This document shows, one piece after another, positions 16,578-57,057 of a DNA stretch of 64,000 bases. The stretch spans positions 1 to 64,000 of the forward strand of contig JASHOQ010000078.1 of assembly GCA_030041045.1 (NCBI GenBank), in the 5' to 3' direction. Both the position numbers and the translations under genes were made by a program. Position 1 is the stretch's first letter. Every line of letters begins with the position of its first letter. The notes beneath the pieces are model-generated. The model was not told the origin of the DNA and searched no databases. It was given only the letters and a program-made list of their open reading frames with translations. This stretch comes from Acidobacteriaceae bacterium. Lineage in GTDB: Bacteria > Acidobacteriota > Terriglobia > Terriglobales > Acidobacteriaceae.

Positions 16578-17228
16578 ATGCAGAGAGTCCGCCTTCCGAT
16601 CCGGTTCCTATCCATTTTTGTGCTCGCTTCCGGCATGGGCGCGGCGCAAACGCCGAGCTTCACCATTTCCGCCAGCAACGCGATCATGCCGCCCGATGTC
16701 ACCACGTGCAGCCTCGGAGTCTGCTCCATGCACTTGGGCGGGAGCACGGCCACACTCACTTCGCTCAGTGGTTATGCAGGCAGCGTGCTCATCCGCTGCG
16801 GGCCCGCGAACGCTCAACCGGGTGGAAATCTGCCCTATTGCATTCTGGTTGGACCGGGCGAGGTCTCGCTCGCCGCGAACCAGAAGATCACTGTGCCGCT
16901 CAACCTCTCTTGGCAGCCCATCCCGGCTGCGGTAACCCACCCGTTGCATCACGGAAATGGGGGAAAGCCTGCGTGGCCGGCGCTGGCAGGGGTGCTGCTG
17001 TTTGGCCTCGGATTTCGCCGCCGCGCCGCGCGCCCGCTTTTGCTGCTGGTCTTCGCGTTTGGCACGCTGGCCGCTATGGCATCCATCTCCGCCTGTAGCG
17101 CCGGCCACAATCCCGCGACCTCGAAATCTTATACCTATCAGGTCACGGCCACGGAGTATCCCAGCTTGTCCGCATCCGCCAGCACCACCTTCGTCTTGAC
17201 TATTCCCTACGCGCCTCAAAATCCTTAG
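16578..17228 (+). CDS. Small secreted Ig-like protein ending in a split-Ig membrane-hairpin module
   Basis: A 216-residue exported protein. A signal peptide (RFLSIFVLASGMGAAQ) leads into a single beta-rich Ig-like domain with two Cys pairs (about residues 25-115). It is followed by a two-helix module (16974-17228): a hydrophobic segment (ALAGVLLFGLGF), an RRRAAR loop, a second hydrophobic segment ending SISAC (lipobox-like), and a tail YTYQVTATEY that matches the last hairpin of an Ig-like domain. The same module ends the proteins at 42577-45513 and 53662-57057. The start at 16578 is chosen because GAGGAG lies 9 nt upstream. Function unknown; probably cell-surface. Confidence 0.72.
   Translation: MQRVRLPIRFLSIFVLASGMGAAQTPSFTISASNAIMPPDVTTCSLGVCSMHLGGSTATLTSLSGYAGSVLIRCGPANAQPGGNLPYCILVGPGEVSLAANQKITVPLNLSWQPIPAAVTHPLHHGNGGKPAWPALAGVLLFGLGFRRRAARPLLLLVFAFGTLAAMASISACSAGHNPATSKSYTYQVTATEYPSLSASASTTFVLTIPYAPQNP
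16974..17228 (+). other. Split-Ig membrane-hairpin module, copy A
   Basis: Last 84 residues of the 16578 protein: hydrophobic segment (ALAGVLLFGLGF), RRRAAR, second hydrophobic segment (LLLLVFAFGTLAAM), ISAC, linker and tail YTYQVTATEYPS. Confidence 0.7.
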
Positions 17229-42576: not shown

Positions 42577-42825
42577 CTATTCGATGGTCAGGGAGACCGT
42601 GCCGACGTTAGCGGTGGTCGAGCCGGAGGTACCGGTTACGGTGACGGTGTACGGACCGGGGGTGGTTCCTGGTCCTCCGCTCTTGCCGCCACAGCCGAGC
42701 ACCGAGAGGGAAACGGCCAGCGCCAGGAACGCGACCATAGCGAGCCAGTTCCGGCGACGCCGGGGAACGAAGACTAACAGAACCACGGCGAGCGCGGTTC
42801 CTCCAGCCGAGGGCCAGATGAGGTT
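42577..42825 (-). other. Split-Ig membrane-hairpin module, copy B
   Basis: Last 82 residues of the GH113-like protein: hydrophobic helix (TALAVVLLVFV), PRRRR, second helix (MVAFLALAVSLSV), LGC, Gly/Pro linker and tail VTVTGTSGST. The tail matches the last beta hairpin of the preceding Ig repeats (TVTGTSGS), so the membrane hairpin sits inside the last Ig domain. Confidence 0.75.
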
Positions 42826-45513
42826 CTTCGGCTCGCTCCTGGCGCTGCCTGGTGCATTGGCGCTGCCTGGCGCAGCGCTGACGATGGTAAGCAAGGAAGC
42901 GGCGGCTGTATTCCCGCTGATGGCCACTGCGGCGGGCGAAAGCGTGCATGAGGGACCGTCGGCCACCACCGGCGTGATGGCGCAGGTGAGGTTGACGGTT
43001 CCGGTAAATCCATTCGTCCCAATGACGGCGATCGTCGCGGTGTTGCCCGAGGTCGCCCCGGGTTCAATCGAAATCGACGCGTCGGGGTTGCCGCTATAGG
43101 TGAAGCCGGGAGCTCCGGTTACGGAGAGCGCGATCGTGACCTCCTGAACGCTGCTGCCGGAAGTGCCGGTCACGGTGATGTTGATCGGCCCCTGGATTGT
43201 GGCGGTTGCCGAGGCGGTGAGAGTGAGCGTGGTGGAGGCACTGCTGGTGGGATTGGGGCTGAAGCTGCCGGTCACGCCGCTCGGCACACCGGTCACGGTG
43301 AATGTGACGCTGCCGTTGAAGTCGCCCAGATCAGTGATGGCGACAGGGATGGTCGTGTTTTCGCCCTCGGCGACAGAATAGGCCTGGTTCTGCGTGGACA
43401 GCGTGAAACTGGGCGGGACCTCGACACTGACCTGAATGGTGGTGGAGTCACTCAGGCTTCCGCTGGTTCCGGTCACAGTTACGGTCACCGGACCACCGAG
43501 TGAGGCTGAGCTGGCTGCGGTGAGGGTAAGCTCGCTTGAGCCGGTGGTGGGATTGGGGCTGAAGGATGCCGTGACTCCGGAAGGAAGCCCGGACGCGGAG
43601 AGCGTCACACTGCCGCTGAATCCGTTGGCTTCAGTCACCGTTACGGTCTCAGAGTTGGCGCTGCCCTGGGCTACATCCAGCGTGGGCAGCCCGGCCGCGA
43701 CGGTAAAGTTGGGCGGACCGATGGTGAGCTCGATGGTCGCACTGGCGGTGAGAGTCTGCGAGCCGGAAGTACCGGTTCCGGTGATGGTCACCGCGGCGCT
43801 TCCCGTCGGCGTGGAATCGCCGATATTCAGGGTGATGACTTGCGTGCCTGTGGCGCTGCCGGCTCCGAAAGATGCGGTGACGCCGCTGGGCAGGTTCGTG
43901 GCAGCCAGCGTGACCGCGCCGGTGAATCCGCCAATATCGGTGACCGTGATGGTGCTGGTGGCTGTGCCGCCCTGGCCCACGGACAAGCTGACGGGCGAGG
44001 CGCTGAGTTTAAAGCCCGGCGGGAGGGCAACCACCGTGAGCGCGATGGTGGTGGTTGCGGTCAGGCTGCCGGAGGTTCCCGTAATGGTGACCGTTACCGG
44101 ATTCCCCGCCGCAGCCGTGCTGCCGGCAGCCAGTGCAAGGATCTGCGTGTTGGCCGCGCTGCCCGCGGTAAAGGACGCAGTAACGCCGGTGGGCAAGCCG
44201 GAGGCGGCCAAAGTGACAGTTCCGTTGAACCCGTCAAGCGGCGTGATGGAGATGAGGGTGGAGGTGTTCGAGCTCTGGCTCAAAGTGAGCGCGGAGTTGG
44301 CGGGCGCAAGCGTGAAACCCTGCGTTTGCGAGCCGAACCATTCGGGGAGCGTGGTGTCTCCGGCGGTCTTGTTCTGCGGCGAGTAGCCGGTGTCATTGGC
44401 CGCAGGCGGCGAAACCATCCACGTCCACCAGAAAACGCCTTTCATCCAGGAGGTCTGCTGGCTGAACACCTCGAAAAATGCTTCGTAGCAGTTGGCCTGC
44501 TCGGCTTCATCGTACGCACCGGTGGGTGTGTAGTTGTACGGGGCCGCGTTCGAGCCGGTCGCGCTGGGATAGCCGATCTCGGTAAAGATGAGCGGCTTGC
44601 CGGGATAGGCGCTGGAGAGATTTTCAAGCGCGGCCACGGCGTTGAAATCACCGGCACAGGGGTTGTCGGTCCAGCCGCTCTCAAGCTCCGCCAGCGTAGG
44701 ATCGGGAGGCGTGCTGGTGTTGCAGTCGGCCGAGTTGTCGATGGGGAAATAGCCGTCGACGCCGATGATGTCGACGTCATTCCAGAAGGAGACGGTGGTG
44801 AACTCGTCGCCGGCGCTGGTGGCGTTGGCGCCGTAAACCAGGGTGAGATCGGGATACTGCTGGCGCAGCGGAGTGATGACGTATTGCTCCCAGTACGATT
44901 CACAAGTGCCGGCGCAGGTGTTGCCGGTGAGCATGGTGAACTCCGTGCCGATGACGAGAATGCCCACGCCGTTCTGCGACGCGATCTGCGCGTAATGCAG
45001 GATGAAAGACTGGTAGCTGGTGAACCACGCCGTGAGCCATGCCTGCTGCTCGGCAGTGGTGGTGTCCGTCGTAGGCCAGGTGAAGTCGCCGCGCCAGGTT
45101 CCGTCAATCGAGTCTACGTGCGGCTTGAGCGCGACCGTGACGCCCTGTGCCTGCAAAGCCTGGATGGCCGCGATCACGGCGGCGTCAGCGGGCGATAGCG
45201 GATCGGTGCTGGCATCGTAGCCAGGAGACGAAGTGGTCTCCGGTGCAATGGAGTTCGAATCGTAGGTCTGCACGTACCAGGTGGCCACCACGGCGGTATA
45301 GTTGGCGCTGGTTTCGCGGATGGTTTGCGCAGCCTCCGAGCTCGAGAGATAGCCGTCCTGGGTGTAGTCGGTGAAATCGATTCCGTTGTATTGGAAGCCT
45401 GACTGGCTTTGAGCCGCGGCTCTGTGCGAGCCGGCGAAGGTAGTCAGCACGGCCAGCAGGATTCGAGCAACGGAGCGCAGGGCGCGGGGGGAGAACGCGT
45501 GCGCACGCTTCAT
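42577..45513 (-). CDS. Exported GH113-like TIM-barrel glycosidase with five Ig-like repeats and split-Ig membrane module
   Basis: A 978-residue protein. Signal peptide (residues 10-35), then a TIM-barrel resembling GH113 beta-mannanases with acid/base candidate E191 (VIGTEF) and nucleophile candidate E312 (FTEIGYP). After residue 400 come five Ig-like repeats of about 95 residues, each starting FTL/FKL and ending TSGSxxxxxTIxLxV. The fifth is interrupted by the membrane hairpin with RRRR loop and VLGC, after which its final hairpin follows. GGGGGTGA precedes the ATG, which overlaps the ankyrin stop (ATGA), so they are one operon. Confidence 0.78.
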   Translation of the reverse strand: MKRAHAFSPRALRSVARILLAVLTTFAGSHRAAAQSQSGFQYNGIDFTDYTQDGYLSSSEAAQTIRETSANYTAVVATWYVQTYDSNSIAPETTSSPGYDASTDPLSPADAAVIAAIQALQAQGVTVALKPHVDSIDGTWRGDFTWPTTDTTTAEQQAWLTAWFTSYQSFILHYAQIASQNGVGILVIGTEFTMLTGNTCAGTCESYWEQYVITPLRQQYPDLTLVYGANATSAGDEFTTVSFWNDVDIIGVDGYFPIDNSADCNTSTPPDPTLAELESGWTDNPCAGDFNAVAALENLSSAYPGKPLIFTEIGYPSATGSNAAPYNYTPTGAYDEAEQANCYEAFFEVFSQQTSWMKGVFWWTWMVSPPAANDTGYSPQNKTAGDTTLPEWFGSQTQGFTLAPANSALTLSQSSNTSTLISITPLDGFNGTVTLAASGLPTGVTASFTAGSAANTQILALAAGSTAAAGNPVTVTITGTSGSLTATTTIALTVVALPPGFKLSASPVSLSVGQGGTATSTITVTDIGGFTGAVTLAATNLPSGVTASFGAGSATGTQVITLNIGDSTPTGSAAVTITGTGTSGSQTLTASATIELTIGPPNFTVAAGLPTLDVAQGSANSETVTVTEANGFSGSVTLSASGLPSGVTASFSPNPTTGSSELTLTAASSASLGGPVTVTVTGTSGSLSDSTTIQVSVEVPPSFTLSTQNQAYSVAEGENTTIPVAITDLGDFNGSVTFTVTGVPSGVTGSFSPNPTSSASTTLTLTASATATIQGPINITVTGTSGSSVQEVTIALSVTGAPGFTYSGNPDASISIEPGATSGNTATIAVIGTNGFTGTVNLTCAITPVVADGPSCTLSPAAVAISGNTAAASLLTIVSAAPGSANAPGSARSEPKNLIWPSAGGTALAVVLLVFVPRRRRNWLAMVAFLALAVSLSVLGCGGKSGGPGTTPGPYTVTVTGTSGSTTANVGTVSLTIE

Positions 45514-46214
45514 GGCTTCACCCCCGTCTGCGTCAGGCACCAGCTGGGGACGGCGATGCGGTCGCCGGGTTGAACGCCGTTGCTGCCGCCGACCAGCCTG
45601 GCCGCGGAGCACTCGGCTCGCGCCTGGCAGCCCCCGGCGCAGCCAACAAGTTTTGTGATTTCGATCTCGACCGAGCGCGGATTGAACGAGCGCACCGTAC
45701 CGCAGAAGCCGTCGCCTGCCCAGGGCCGGACGCAAACGCTATCGCCCACAGATTTGCCGGTGGAGTGCGCGCCCGACTGGAGAAGGAGCGCGGCAATCTG
45801 CGCCTGGCCGGTGTTTTCCGCGACATTCAGCGCCGTGCCCGTGCCGCGCGAAGACCAATCGAGACTGGCGCCGGCGGCAATAAGCGCCGCAACGGCATCG
45901 ATCTTGCCGCTCTCGGCGGCGGCGATGAGCGCGGTGCGGCCGTCAGCCGCGGTCGCGTTCACGCCTGCTCCTGCGGCGAGCAGCGACTTGACGCGTGCGG
46001 TATCGCCCTCGGACGCGGCGGACACGAGCGGAGTGAGGCCCTGCGCATCGCGGGCGTCAAAACTCGGGGCTCCGAGTGCCGCGTTATGTGAAGCGCCTTG
46101 AGCGAAGGCGCAGCCCGGGAAAAAGCTCAGCGCCAGAATCAGGAGTGCGCGCGGAAGGCGCGCCGATGGCCGAGGAAGATGCGGCCGGCCCGGGGGATGC
46201 AGAGACAAATGCAT
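45510..46214 (-). CDS. Exported ankyrin-repeat protein
   Basis: A 234-residue exported protein (signal peptide ALLILALSFFPGCAFA) with three ankyrin repeats (DAQGLTPLVSAASEGDTARVKSLLAAGAGVNA and two more). The C-terminal 80 residues are Cys-rich (six Cys) and beta-like. Ankyrin repeats bind proteins; the partner is unknown. It overlaps the GH113-like gene by 4 bases (ATGA), so the two are translated together. Confidence 0.85.
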   Translation of the reverse strand: MHLSLHPPGRPHLPRPSARLPRALLILALSFFPGCAFAQGASHNAALGAPSFDARDAQGLTPLVSAASEGDTARVKSLLAAGAGVNATAADGRTALIAAAESGKIDAVAALIAAGASLDWSSRGTGTALNVAENTGQAQIAALLLQSGAHSTGKSVGDSVCVRPWAGDGFCGTVRSFNPRSVEIEITKLVGCAGGCQARAECSAARLVGGSNGVQPGDRIAVPSWCLTQTGVKP

Positions 46215-53661: not shown

Positions 53662-56600
53662 ATGTTTACACATTTCCCGTTCCCCCAGGGTGCAAGTTTT
53701 GATTTGAATTCCGCCAGGACCAAAACACTGAGAAAACTCGCCACGCTTTGCCCGTTGGCACTGTGCGCACTCTGCATGACCAGACCGAGCCTGCCGGCGC
53801 AGACGCCAACACCCGTGCCGGTTCTCACCTGGCGTTACGATCTGACGCACGCCGGGCAAAACACCGATGAGACCGCACTGACGCCGCAGAACGTGAATGT
53901 AAATTCATTCGGCAAACTGTTCGCGATGCCCGTGGACAGCACGGTATACGCGCAGCCGCTCTATGTGCCCAACATCACCATGAGCGACGGAAATGTGCAC
54001 AACGTGCTTTTTGTCTGCACGGAGAACGATTCGATCTACGCTTTCGACGCCGATTCGAATGGCGGCGCGGATGCAAATCCGATCTGGCAGGTCAGCCTGC
54101 TCACGTCAGCGCATGGAGCGAGTGCGGGCGCGACCGCCGTGCCATGGAGCGACACCGATTCGCCGGATGTGGCTCCGACCGTCGGTATCACGGGCACGCC
54201 CACGATCAATCCCGCCGCCAACATCATGTACGTGGTGGCTGCGACCAAGGAGAATGGCACGTATTACTCGCGTCTCCATGCCATCAACATCGTCACCGGC
54301 GCGGAGGAGCCGGGCAGCCCCGTGGTGGTGACGGCGACGGTTGCCGGAACCGGCAACGGCAGCTCCGGCGGGCAGTTGACGTTCAGCCCGCTCTGGGAGA
54401 ACCAGCGTACCGCGCTCGACTACTACAACGGATATGTCTACTTCGGTTACGCGGCGCACGGCGACAACGGCCCCTGGCATGGTTGGGTGTTCGCCTACAA
54501 CGCCACCACGCTTGCACAAAGCGCGGTCCTGTGTCTTTCCCCAAATGGAGACGGCGCCGGCGTGTGGGCCGCGGGAGCGGGCATGCCCATTGACGACGAC
54601 GCAACCGGCGGGCGCATGTTTCTGGTCACGGGAAATGGAACCAACACCACGTATCCGCCGTTCAACGCCAGCAGCGAGCTGGGCGAGAGTGTTGTCGACA
54701 TCAGCCTTGCCAACGGCGGGCTTACGCCCACAGATGCTTTTACCCCCTTCAACTACGAGACTTTGAACAGCCACGACTGGGATCTAGGCTCGGGCGGGAT
54801 TCTCATGGTGCCCGACCAGCAGGGAGCCTATCCGCACATCCTGGTGGAAGGGGGAAAAGAGGGACGCATCACGGTTCTCAACCGCGACAATCTCGGGGGC
54901 AATAACGGAAGCGCGTCGTCCGATGCCACTGCGCTCCAGGAGATTACAGGCATCACGCCGGAGGGCGAGGGATTCTGGAATACCGCGGCTTACTGGAACG
55001 GCAATGTCTATCTCTGGCCGGAGTTCGGCTCACCGATGCTGTTCCTGATGAACAGCGGTGTGATGAGCACCACGGCATCGAGCACGGATACGACGATCAC
55101 GTCCAACTTTCCCAGCCCGTCGTTCTCCATCTCTTCCAACGGCACCGCGGACGGCGTCGCCTGGGCAGTGCGCTCAGACCAATTCAACACCGATGGGCCC
55201 GCCGTGCTTTACGCGTGGGATGCCAATGAGCTCACCAGCACCATTTACGAAAGCGACACCAATTCCACGCGCGATGCAGCCGGACCGGCAAACAAGTTTT
55301 CCATCCCCATTGTGACCAACGGCAAGGTGTACGTGGCGGCGAATGGGGAAGTGGACGTGTACGGCCTGCTCAACGGTGAGCCGAGCGCGGCTGCACCCAC
55401 CATTACTCCGAATGGCGGCACGTTCGCCTCGACAGCCACGGTGACGCTTGCCACAACGACGGCGGATGCAAACATCTACTACACGCTGAACGGAACCGCG
55501 CCCACGCCCGCATCGACGCAGTACACAGGACCGATCACCGTGACCACGGATACGACTTTGGAAGCGATAGCCAGCGCGGCCGGCTACCTCCAGAGCGGAG
55601 TAAACACGGCGACGTTCACCTTCTCCGACCAAACGCCGCTCCTGACTTTCTCGCCGGCCGCGGGAACTTACCTGAATGCGCAGTCGGTGACGATCACCGA
55701 TGCCGATGCTAACGCGAAGATTTACTACACCACCAACGGCACTACGCCGTCGGCCTCGTCGACCCCGTATACGGGCGCGATCGCCGTCGCGGCCTCGATG
55801 ACGATAGAAGCCATCGCCATCGACCCCAGCCTCGAAAACAGCGACGTGGGAACGGCGGCATACGTGATTCAGAACGGAGGCACTTCAATCAACTTCAGCA
55901 CGGGCTTTTCTTCAACCGCCGGGCTCACCTTGAATGGCAGCGCCGTGGCCGATGACGACACCCGTCTGCAGTTGACCGACGGCCAATTGTGGCAGGCTGG
56001 CAGCGTCTTCTGGGACGCGCCCATCAATATCACGACGTTCACCACCAATTTCGAGTTCCAGCTCTCGAACGCGGAAGGCAACGGCATTACGTTCACGATT
56101 CAGAATATGGGAGCGAACGCCCTTGGCGGCGACTCGGCCGGACTCGGCTACCAGGGCATTCAGCAGAGCGTCGCGGTCAAGTTCAACTTCTACAATTACG
56201 AGAACGAAGGGAGCGACTCGACCGGCTTCTACACAGATGGAGAACCGCCGGTGAGCCCGACTATCGACATCAGCCCCAGCGGGATCGAGCTGGGCAGCGG
56301 CGATGGCATTCAGGCGCAGCTCACGTACGATGGCACCACGCTGACCCTGAACTTGAGCGATCCTGTAACCGGCGACACCTTTACCACCTCGCAGGCAATC
56401 AACATTCCGCAGATCGTGGGCGGCAATATGGCGTATGTCGGATTTACGGGAGGAACGGGCGGACTTACAGCAAGCCAGAAGATCCTCACCTGGACGTACA
56501 CAACGTCCGCGCTGACGGGCACGACAGGACCGACAACCTTCGCACTGAGCGCCTCGCCTGCGGCGTCCATTCCGCAGGGCGGCTCGGCGACTTCAACCAT

Positions 56601-57057
56601 TACCATCACACCGAGCGGCGGCTTCACGGGCACGGTAGCGCTTGCTTGCGCGGTAACCTCCGCCCCTGCGGGAGCCGTGGATTTGCCCACCTGCTCCGTG
56701 ACCCAGCCCGCGGCCATCGCCTCGGGCGCGGTCACCGCCACGCTCACGGTGAACAGCACTGCGCCCGCCAACACGGCATCGAACACCGCGGTTCCCCAAT
56801 TATTTGTGGCTGGCGGGGGCGCCAGCCTTGCTACCCTGCTCTTTTTCTGTCTGCCCATTCGGCGGCGCAGGTGGAGAACGTTCTTCAGCCTGATCGTGTT
56901 CGCGATTCTCACGGCCGCAGCCAGCGGGTGCGTCAGCTCCGATGGAATCGGCGCTCAAAGCAGTTCCGGAACAACTGCGGGCGCCTATACCATCACGGTG
57001 AGCGGAATCAGCGGATCGACGATGGTGAGTACCTCGGTGGCGATCACGGTGCAATAA
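53662..57057 (+). CDS. Large secreted propeller-lectin protein with split-Ig membrane module
   Basis: A 1131-residue exported protein. After a signal peptide (ATLCPLALCALC region) comes a PQQ/WD-like beta-propeller (about 40-570), two chitobiase-C-terminal-type beta domains (573-655 and 659-735), an L-type-lectin-like (concanavalin) domain (739-950, with GNGITFTIQNMGANALGG and VAVKFNFYNY), and an Ig-like domain interrupted by the membrane hairpin (RRRRWR loop, ASGC) before its last hairpin YTITVSGISGST. Domain content suggests polysaccharide binding at the cell surface. It ends in a strong terminator. Confidence 0.8.
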   Translation: MFTHFPFPQGASFDLNSARTKTLRKLATLCPLALCALCMTRPSLPAQTPTPVPVLTWRYDLTHAGQNTDETALTPQNVNVNSFGKLFAMPVDSTVYAQPLYVPNITMSDGNVHNVLFVCTENDSIYAFDADSNGGADANPIWQVSLLTSAHGASAGATAVPWSDTDSPDVAPTVGITGTPTINPAANIMYVVAATKENGTYYSRLHAINIVTGAEEPGSPVVVTATVAGTGNGSSGGQLTFSPLWENQRTALDYYNGYVYFGYAAHGDNGPWHGWVFAYNATTLAQSAVLCLSPNGDGAGVWAAGAGMPIDDDATGGRMFLVTGNGTNTTYPPFNASSELGESVVDISLANGGLTPTDAFTPFNYETLNSHDWDLGSGGILMVPDQQGAYPHILVEGGKEGRITVLNRDNLGGNNGSASSDATALQEITGITPEGEGFWNTAAYWNGNVYLWPEFGSPMLFLMNSGVMSTTASSTDTTITSNFPSPSFSISSNGTADGVAWAVRSDQFNTDGPAVLYAWDANELTSTIYESDTNSTRDAAGPANKFSIPIVTNGKVYVAANGEVDVYGLLNGEPSAAAPTITPNGGTFASTATVTLATTTADANIYYTLNGTAPTPASTQYTGPITVTTDTTLEAIASAAGYLQSGVNTATFTFSDQTPLLTFSPAAGTYLNAQSVTITDADANAKIYYTTNGTTPSASSTPYTGAIAVAASMTIEAIAIDPSLENSDVGTAAYVIQNGGTSINFSTGFSSTAGLTLNGSAVADDDTRLQLTDGQLWQAGSVFWDAPINITTFTTNFEFQLSNAEGNGITFTIQNMGANALGGDSAGLGYQGIQQSVAVKFNFYNYENEGSDSTGFYTDGEPPVSPTIDISPSGIELGSGDGIQAQLTYDGTTLTLNLSDPVTGDTFTTSQAINIPQIVGGNMAYVGFTGGTGGLTASQKILTWTYTTSALTGTTGPTTFALSASPAASIPQGGSATSTITITPSGGFTGTVALACAVTSAPAGAVDLPTCSVTQPAAIASGAVTATLTVNSTAPANTASNTAVPQLFVAGGGASLATLLFFCLPIRRRRWRTFFSLIVFAILTAAASGCVSSDGIGAQSSSGTTAGAYTITVSGISGSTMVSTSVAITVQ
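56800..57057 (+). other. Split-Ig membrane-hairpin module, copy C
   Basis: Last 85 residues of the 53662 protein: hydrophobic segment (GGASLATLLFFCLPI), RRRRWR, second segment (FFSLIVFAILTAA), ASGC, Ser/Gly linker, and the tail YTITVSGISGST which completes the interrupted Ig domain. Confidence 0.75.

Follow-up and report, generated by a model that had tools for sequence, protein, structure and literature searches.

A hydrophobic hairpin with an invariant cysteine interrupts the last Ig-like domain of acidobacterial proteins and may act as an internal lipoprotein signal

What is a hydrophobic hairpin doing inside an Ig-like domain at the far end of an exported protein? The question is raised by three separate genes in the stretch of DNA analyzed here (the window; 64,000 nucleotides, positions 1 to 64,000 of contig JASHOQ010000078.1 in the Acidobacteriaceae assembly GCA_030041045.1), the products of which, P1, P2, and P3, have alike C-terminal ends. 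In each translation an Ig-like domain runs up to strand E and is followed by a helix, a basic loop, a second helix, a Cys preceded by Ala, Gly, or Ser (A/G/S), a linker, and strands F and G. An earlier note on this DNA had described one end layout shared by three exported proteins, and translation bore this out for all three; that part of its interpretation is well supported. The reading that we prefer, with a probability of about 0.6, takes the module for a C-terminal lipid anchor, in which a type II signal peptide, located internally in the E-F loop, would be lipidated and cut and the tail behind it retained.

P1 is encoded on the reverse strand by an open reading frame (ORF) at 42577-45735 with a likely Met codon at 45511-45513. 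Read from this likely ATG, the gene (42577..45513) specifies an N-terminus that by eye is of the Sec type, a GH113-like domain (Pfam, E = 7.7e-47), Ig repeats, and the module, which NCBIfam calls lipo-invert. Strands A to E, the front part of the last Ig-like domain, are at 42868..43107. Then come helix 1 at 42763..42822 (sequence LIWPSAGGTALAVVLLVFVP), proposed to be a stop-transfer segment with its N-terminus out and its C-terminus in; an RRRR loop at 42751..42762, proposed to lie in the cytoplasm as the n-region of the internal signal; helix 2 at 42694..42750, with VLG as its last residues, the proposed h-region and lipobox; the Cys codon of VLGC at 42691..42693, where lipidation and the LspA cut are proposed; and the tail with strands F and G of the split domain at 42580..42666, all on the reverse strand.

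The other two genes are on the forward strand. The P3 ORF (53662-57057) contains the front part of the last Ig-like domain at 56536..56772 (located with a repeat profile), helix 1 at 56803..56859, an RRRR loop at 56860..56871, helix 2 with the lipobox ASGC at 56872..56931 (helix 56872-56928, Cys codon 56929-56931), and the tail strands at 56968..57054. Its passenger has a CHB_HEX_C_1 domain and a lectin-like domain, the latter below its Pfam cut-off. In the 238-amino-acid (aa) ORF of P2 (16512-17228), helix 1 is at 16968..17015, an RRRAAR loop at 17016..17033, helix 2 with the lipobox ISAC at 17034..17096 (helix 17034-17093, Cys codon 17094-17096), and the tail strands at 17121..17225. A Pfam scan found no domain above cut-off in P2, and the mature protein is hardly more than one split Ig domain. 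A second protein of this genome, with an open frame of 246 aa (L195, contig C36), is likewise small, roughly a signal peptide plus one split Ig domain. By eye, the N-termini of P1, P2, and P3 resemble Sec type I signals.

NCBIfam already lists the module, with a name that hints at anchoring of a lipoprotein-like kind. The model NF058595, "invert_tail" (113 positions, release 20.0), is described as "lipo-invert putative C-terminal anchoring domain-containing protein" and matched P1, P2, and P3 at E = 4.9e-17, 4.2e-8, and 1.2e-16. Its curated cut-off of 37 bits was exceeded by P1 (62.3) and P3 (61.1). P2 scored below it, at 33.5 bits when the protein was scanned and 35.9 when the genome was, but despite these scores it agrees with the module by layout, by masked profile, and by structural model. 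The masked profile was made to avoid circularity: in a 30-row alignment, eight positions around the Cys were replaced by X. It found P1, P2, and P3 at E = 2.6e-28, 5.5e-10, and 9.8e-25; because P1 and P3 are among the 30 rows, only P2 is an independent match.

Does the hairpin really lie within a domain, as the earlier note had placed it, or does it separate two? We approached this with a profile of the Ig-like repeat. Four intact internal repeats of P1 seeded it, and a search of the retrieved loci with these added 11 rows. Of the resulting 15 rows, seven are repeats of P1 itself, counting overlapping copies, and eight come from six other proteins, so that P1 is no independent test of the profile but most members are. 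In P1 the match covered model positions 1 to 72 in the front part and 73 to 100 in the tail, with 67 residues between them. The two matches in P3 (2-89 and 63-100) overlapped by over-extension, and P2, which is too divergent, gave no match. Among 138 distinct members, a set that leaves out L007, L023-L029 (matches that lack the hairpin, among them tail-only ones), and duplicates in the last 100 residues, 120 matched in two parts at a domain E value of 0.1 or better; three matched by the tail alone, and 15 had no tail match. In the two-part members the front match ended at a median model position of 75 and the tail match started at a median of 71, around an insert of 37 to 87 residues (median, 67). 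Two matches that abut in the model on either side of an insert indicate that the hairpin occupies what would be the E-F loop in an uninterrupted repeat.

Structure prediction agreed with this placement. The AF2 model of the last 180 residues of P1, made with 91 other rows, had a mean pLDDT of 85.4 and a pTM of 0.68. It put the front strands at residues 5-80, helices at 104-116 and 120-140, and the two tail strands at 155-165 and 168-179; by block, pLDDT was 93-98 at residues 21-80, 94-96 in the tail, and 64-83 over the helices. With VIA-align the model aligned across the hairpin to the solved Ig domain 8jmw_A (Z = 11.9, rmsd 2.1, 105 aligned, chain 594-700) and to sialidase 1eut (Z = 10.8, 98 aligned, chain 404-502). 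The P2 model, from a 43-row alignment, had the same layout (mean pLDDT 78.5, tail strands at 160-171 and 177-186) and aligned to 2r39 (Z = 9.9, 104 positions aligned in a chain of 109 residues). The candidates came from Foldseek, whose own matches were weak and global (best, E = 1.1e-3), and VIA-align was applied to them. The AF2 alignments consisted of members only, and continuity of the chain may itself fold the tail back; closure of the sandwich was judged by pLDDT, DSSP, and structural alignment. No Pfam Ig family was above cut-off for the last domain of P1, P2, or P3, and on the split domain Pfam gave nothing but DUF4131/DUF7471 noise and, in P1, a FixG_C match below threshold. The models and structural alignments thus predict the tail to be the missing strands rather than a separate domain, the outcome that would have counted against the earlier note and that the P1 and P2 predictions did not give. 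In both proteins the front part and the tail are predicted to complete an Ig-like beta-sandwich.

Two copies in this genome depart from the usual tail. A pro-kumamolisin protein (L007/L182, C140:42791-43471) has an extra Ig-like stretch after the lipobox Cys and before the two strands of the tail, which means that the linker tolerates a whole domain. In another (L022/L196, C30:3171-3467) only 27 residues follow the Cys, few for two full strands; this copy is possibly a degraded or variant form.

The Cys was at the end of helix 2 in all 66 distinct members examined among those found with the masked profile, that is, without use of the Cys itself (70 loci of the class scan, 30 plus another 40 taken from the lower part of the match list, sampled down to about E = 1e-16 outside this genome, minus duplicates). 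The earlier reading would have failed had most homologues lacked this residue, and none of the 66 did. As a control, any Cys within 17 residues was found at the end of helix 1 in only 10 of 55 members, the pattern used for the control dropping the 11 of 66 that have no basic triplet. In this genome the 20 matches that cover the helices, down to E = 6.4e-8, all have the Cys (L007 by eye), and it is the sole invariant column both in the 92-row alignment that includes P1 and in the 43-row alignment. When the Cys was chosen by hydropathy alone, it fell after Arg in 2 of 66 members, both of which still have A/G/S at the end of helix 2. Since 63 of the 66 tails have no further Cys, there is no conserved disulfide partner there.

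If the hairpin were an ordinary inner-membrane anchor, with the Cys kept for another purpose or as a frozen feature, its helices should be sufficient, and in the 138 members the hydropathy of both is high enough for a transmembrane span (median, 2.11 for helix 1 and 2.07 for helix 2). Such an anchor should tolerate loss of the Cys, however, which none of the 66 members found without use of the Cys displays. Nor would it account for position -1, which is A/G/S in 138 of 138 members (G in 60, A in 49, S in 29; for example, FAGC in L078), or for the N-terminal lipobox in the two nearest outside relatives of the GH113-like P1, described below. We consider an ordinary anchor improbable.

The surroundings of the Cys resemble a type II signal peptide in having a basic n-region, a hydrophobic h-region, and A/G/S before the Cys; they differ in that such a signal belongs at the N-terminus of a precursor and this one is internal, near the C-terminus. 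The Cys lies 27 to 67 residues from the C-terminus in the 51 members scored, and the tail after it has a median of about 42 residues. The net charge of the loop ranges from +1 to +8 (median, +4) and is at least +2 in 135 of 138 members, and a pattern for three basic residues in close succession fits 55 of the 66 masked-profile members. Thus, of the RRR(R) loop in the earlier note, the basic character is general and the exact RRR string is not, while its view that helix 2 is laid out as a type II signal peptide gains from the invariant Cys and the A/G/S at -1. A PROSITE-like lipoprotein pattern fits 105 of the 138 members, with an uncharged h-region of median length 18 in those 105; over the 36,404 residues of the protein bodies it has 54 further occurrences. 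The residue following the Cys is G in 108 of 138 members and never Asp. Position -3 is less constrained: L, V, or I in 62 of 138, and otherwise also A, M, W, Q, or T. The same loci yielded 25 N-terminal lipoprotein candidates, of which 19 have A/G/S at -1, too few for a logo. In this small and mixed set, -3 is L, V, or I in 7 of 19, so this position may be loose in this group. Some of the candidates resemble the module after the Cys (e.g., ...FFAAGCGGGSSSSSG and ...IISLAGCGSSSVSPP).

A conserved Cys combined with a loose -3 position is also what might be seen if Lgt lipidated the Cys and LspA did not cut, leaving the whole chain held by two helices plus the lipid. The internal location of the site points the same way, as a literature search turned up no earlier case of LspA working at an internal site near a C-terminus. 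It is LspA that needs A/G/S at -1, and Lgt alone would not require it; with that residue present in every one of the 138 members, lipidation without a cut seems unlikely to us.

The relatives of P1 bear on the same issue. In named records they come from two Acidobacteriaceae metagenome-assembled genomes (MAGs), a Granulicella MAG, a Verrucomicrobia-labelled MAG, and a Vicinamibacteria MAG (40%). A scan of the collection found the tail in P1 and four relatives (L197, L198, L199, and L200). The two nearest relatives outside this tail-bearing group have lipoprotein-like N-termini: L201, labelled Vicinamibacteria (40% identity), with MKRTRHGLRR...TLSVGCGGGGDSAPSPTPEP and ...TLSVGCGGGGDS, and L203, from another family of the phylum (45%), with ...LVAALPFGGCGSSATPTPPNP and ...LPFGGCGSS. 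The tail profile had no match in these two or in 28 other loci checked, and several farther relatives of P1 are also without a clear lipobox. Judged from sequence, an N-terminal lipobox in L201 and L203 versus an internal one in the P1 group would fit an equivalent role of the two within one protein family. L200 (CAJCIP010000094.1) is a P1-like protein with a lipo-invert end on a Verrucomicrobia-labelled contig; the taxon label may be wrong, or the gene may have been transferred. When the N-termini of the 19 other copies in the P1 genome were screened, a script flagged A/G/S-Cys near the chosen hydrophobic stretch in five copies. For L195 the stretch picked was the C-terminal helix, and in L181, L183, L188, and L193 an A-x-A or AQ-like end follows by eye; none of the 19 is therefore a clear N-terminal lipoprotein, L181 and L183 being arguable.

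How common is the module, and what does it carry? In this genome (5.23 Mb, 142 contigs) NF058595 gave 29 matches at E = 1e-3 or better, 18 of them over the cut-off, and the masked profile gave 22, of which 20 cover the helices, or about 20 copies. In a sample of the family Acidobacteriaceae, 96 of 100 genomes, this one included, had matches at E = 1e-6. The masked profile matched at least 93 of 151 genomes in a class sample at E = 1e-5, mostly in families f1, f4, and f6, and NF058595 matched at least 49 of 396 in a phylum sample at E = 1e-8 (44 in f1, two in f52, and one each in f28, f49, and f58); both counts are lower bounds, since at most 30 and 11 candidates per genome were scored, respectively. 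None of 14 control genomes matched at the family (E = 1e-6) or phylum (E = 1e-8) threshold. At a loose E of 1e-3, five of the 14 matched NF058595, none over the cut-off. A search for plasmid-borne copies found no match to the last 180 residues of P1 in 72,556 records.

The 19 other copies in this genome end proteins with pro-kumamolisin peptidase domains (five), a GH53 domain with a ricin-type lectin (one), RCC1, NHL, or SBBP propellers, CHB_HEX_C_1, Big_3_5 arrays, and others. Given such varied cargo, the tail appears to be a cassette on unrelated passengers. Five of the roughly 20 copies are on one 90.6-kb contig (C66), 1.7% of the assembly, and their passengers are unrelated; the genome scan placed three in the window (16926-17204, 42583-42897, and 56734-57054) and two beyond it (75793-76140 and 88684-89010).

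We infer the topology, lipidation, cut, and tail retention from the layout, and the preferred reading, an internal lipoprotein signal, would work as follows. The passenger would be exported through its own N-terminal Sec signal. An exported chain must reenter the membrane if a second signal is to have the right orientation, and helix 1 would do this by stopping transfer and bringing the chain back to the cytoplasm. The basic loop would then be the n-region, and helix 2 with A/G/S-Cys would be a correctly oriented h-region and lipobox. Lgt would add diacylglycerol to the Cys, and LspA would cut before it. The freed, lipidated tail, consisting of a flexible linker and strands F and G, would stay in the Ig sandwich, so that the passenger would be held by strand complementation with no covalent bond to the lipid. 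This genome has one LspA and four Lgt homologues (on contigs C107, C49, C25, and C72); across the other genomes that the class sample includes from this family, Lgt homologues number one to four, most often two. A dedicated Lgt was considered and rejected: the tail-rich genomes G130 (at least 10 masked-profile matches) and G193 (at least 19) have one Lgt each, so none is needed.

One step of this scheme calls for more. After the LspA cut the passenger would keep both helices, and helix 1 would hold it in the inner membrane unless it too were cut, a point that the earlier note does not take up and that makes the lipid seem redundant in the absence of a second cut. Yet if the helices sufficed, the Cys should not be invariant. 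Either an uncut hairpin plus lipid serves some purpose, or the passenger is released by a second cut. That the Cys is invariant hints that where the protein ends up depends on its lipid, and this would require helix 1 to be cut as well, either within it or ahead of it. In its fullest form, the scheme would have LspA cutting at the internal lipobox and another protease removing the hairpin, after which the passenger would reach the outer membrane or surface by the noncovalent grip of the lipidated two-strand tail, making the module a general acidobacterial display cassette for peptidases, glycoside hydrolases, and propellers. We put this forward tentatively and think it possible but doubtful.

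A cut at helix 1 could also be the main event, made before or within the helix by an intramembrane or periplasmic protease as for GlyGly-CTERM and MYXO-CTERM proteins, with helix 2 secondary. Helix 1 and the basic loop are indeed ordered like a C-terminal tripartite signal (a hydrophobic helix, then an Arg cluster), small residues such as GG are often seen by eye early in helix 1, and the genome has three rhomboids. Against this, alignments of the members contain no conserved motif before helix 1 that could mark such a cut, whether as the main or as a second one. A rhombosortase partner was looked for and rejected: the matched stretches of the two stronger rhomboids scored 34.4 and 37.1 bits versus a TIGR03902 cut-off of 84, and the third had no hit. 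No NCBIfam sorting-signal model beyond NF058595 matched P1, P2, or P3 at E = 0.1. We regard this alternative as very improbable.

Should the internal-signal reading be true, a lipoprotein signal would operate at the far end of a protein that has already been exported, and the anchor would hold its cargo by completing a fold, without a covalent bond. The module also matters for the question of how acidobacteria retain degradative enzymes at the cell. Lipo-invert has its name from NCBIfam; our search of the open-access literature, by name and by idea, found no study of the module or its mechanism, and as far as that search shows the mechanism is unpublished.

Among known systems, NF058595, compared by model, name, and description, is the same module, matching P1, P2, and P3 over the helices and the tail. 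Bacterial lipoproteins processed by Lgt and LspA share with it a basic n-region, an uncharged h-region, and A/G/S-Cys, and its Gly/Ser-rich linker is like that of some N-terminal candidates from the same loci. They differ in that the signal of the module is internal, near the C-terminus and behind a stop-transfer helix, and in that its lipidated product would be a short tail and not the passenger. The GAIN domain of adhesion receptors cleaves itself, and its fragments are held together by the last strand or strands. In the module, too, two fragments of one domain would stay joined by strand pairing, but the cut would be made by the lipoprotein signal peptidase and the small piece would bear the lipid. 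We know of no Cys lipobox, second helix, or split domain in GlyGly-CTERM proteins, the substrates of rhombosortase. Their likeness to the module is that these exported proteins end in a hydrophobic stretch and then basic residues (PMC6219818). The nearest studied idea is MYXO-CTERM with myxosortase, a C-terminal surface-sorting tag that is cut by myxosortase, has an invariant Cys predicted to be lipidated, and occurs dozens of times per genome (PMC11980579). It shares with the module that Cys, a helix, and an Arg-rich part; in MYXO-CTERM, the Cys stands before a single helix and remains with the passenger, and the protein ends in an Arg cluster (PMC11980579). MYXO-CTERM and GlyGly-CTERM signals are recognized by a motif, one helix, and an Arg-rich end, whereas the module has two helices, its Cys after the second, and a tail of 27 to 67 residues. 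Compared with MYXO-CTERM, the module would have the normal type II orientation with a lipobox, at the cost of placing the lipid on the tail.
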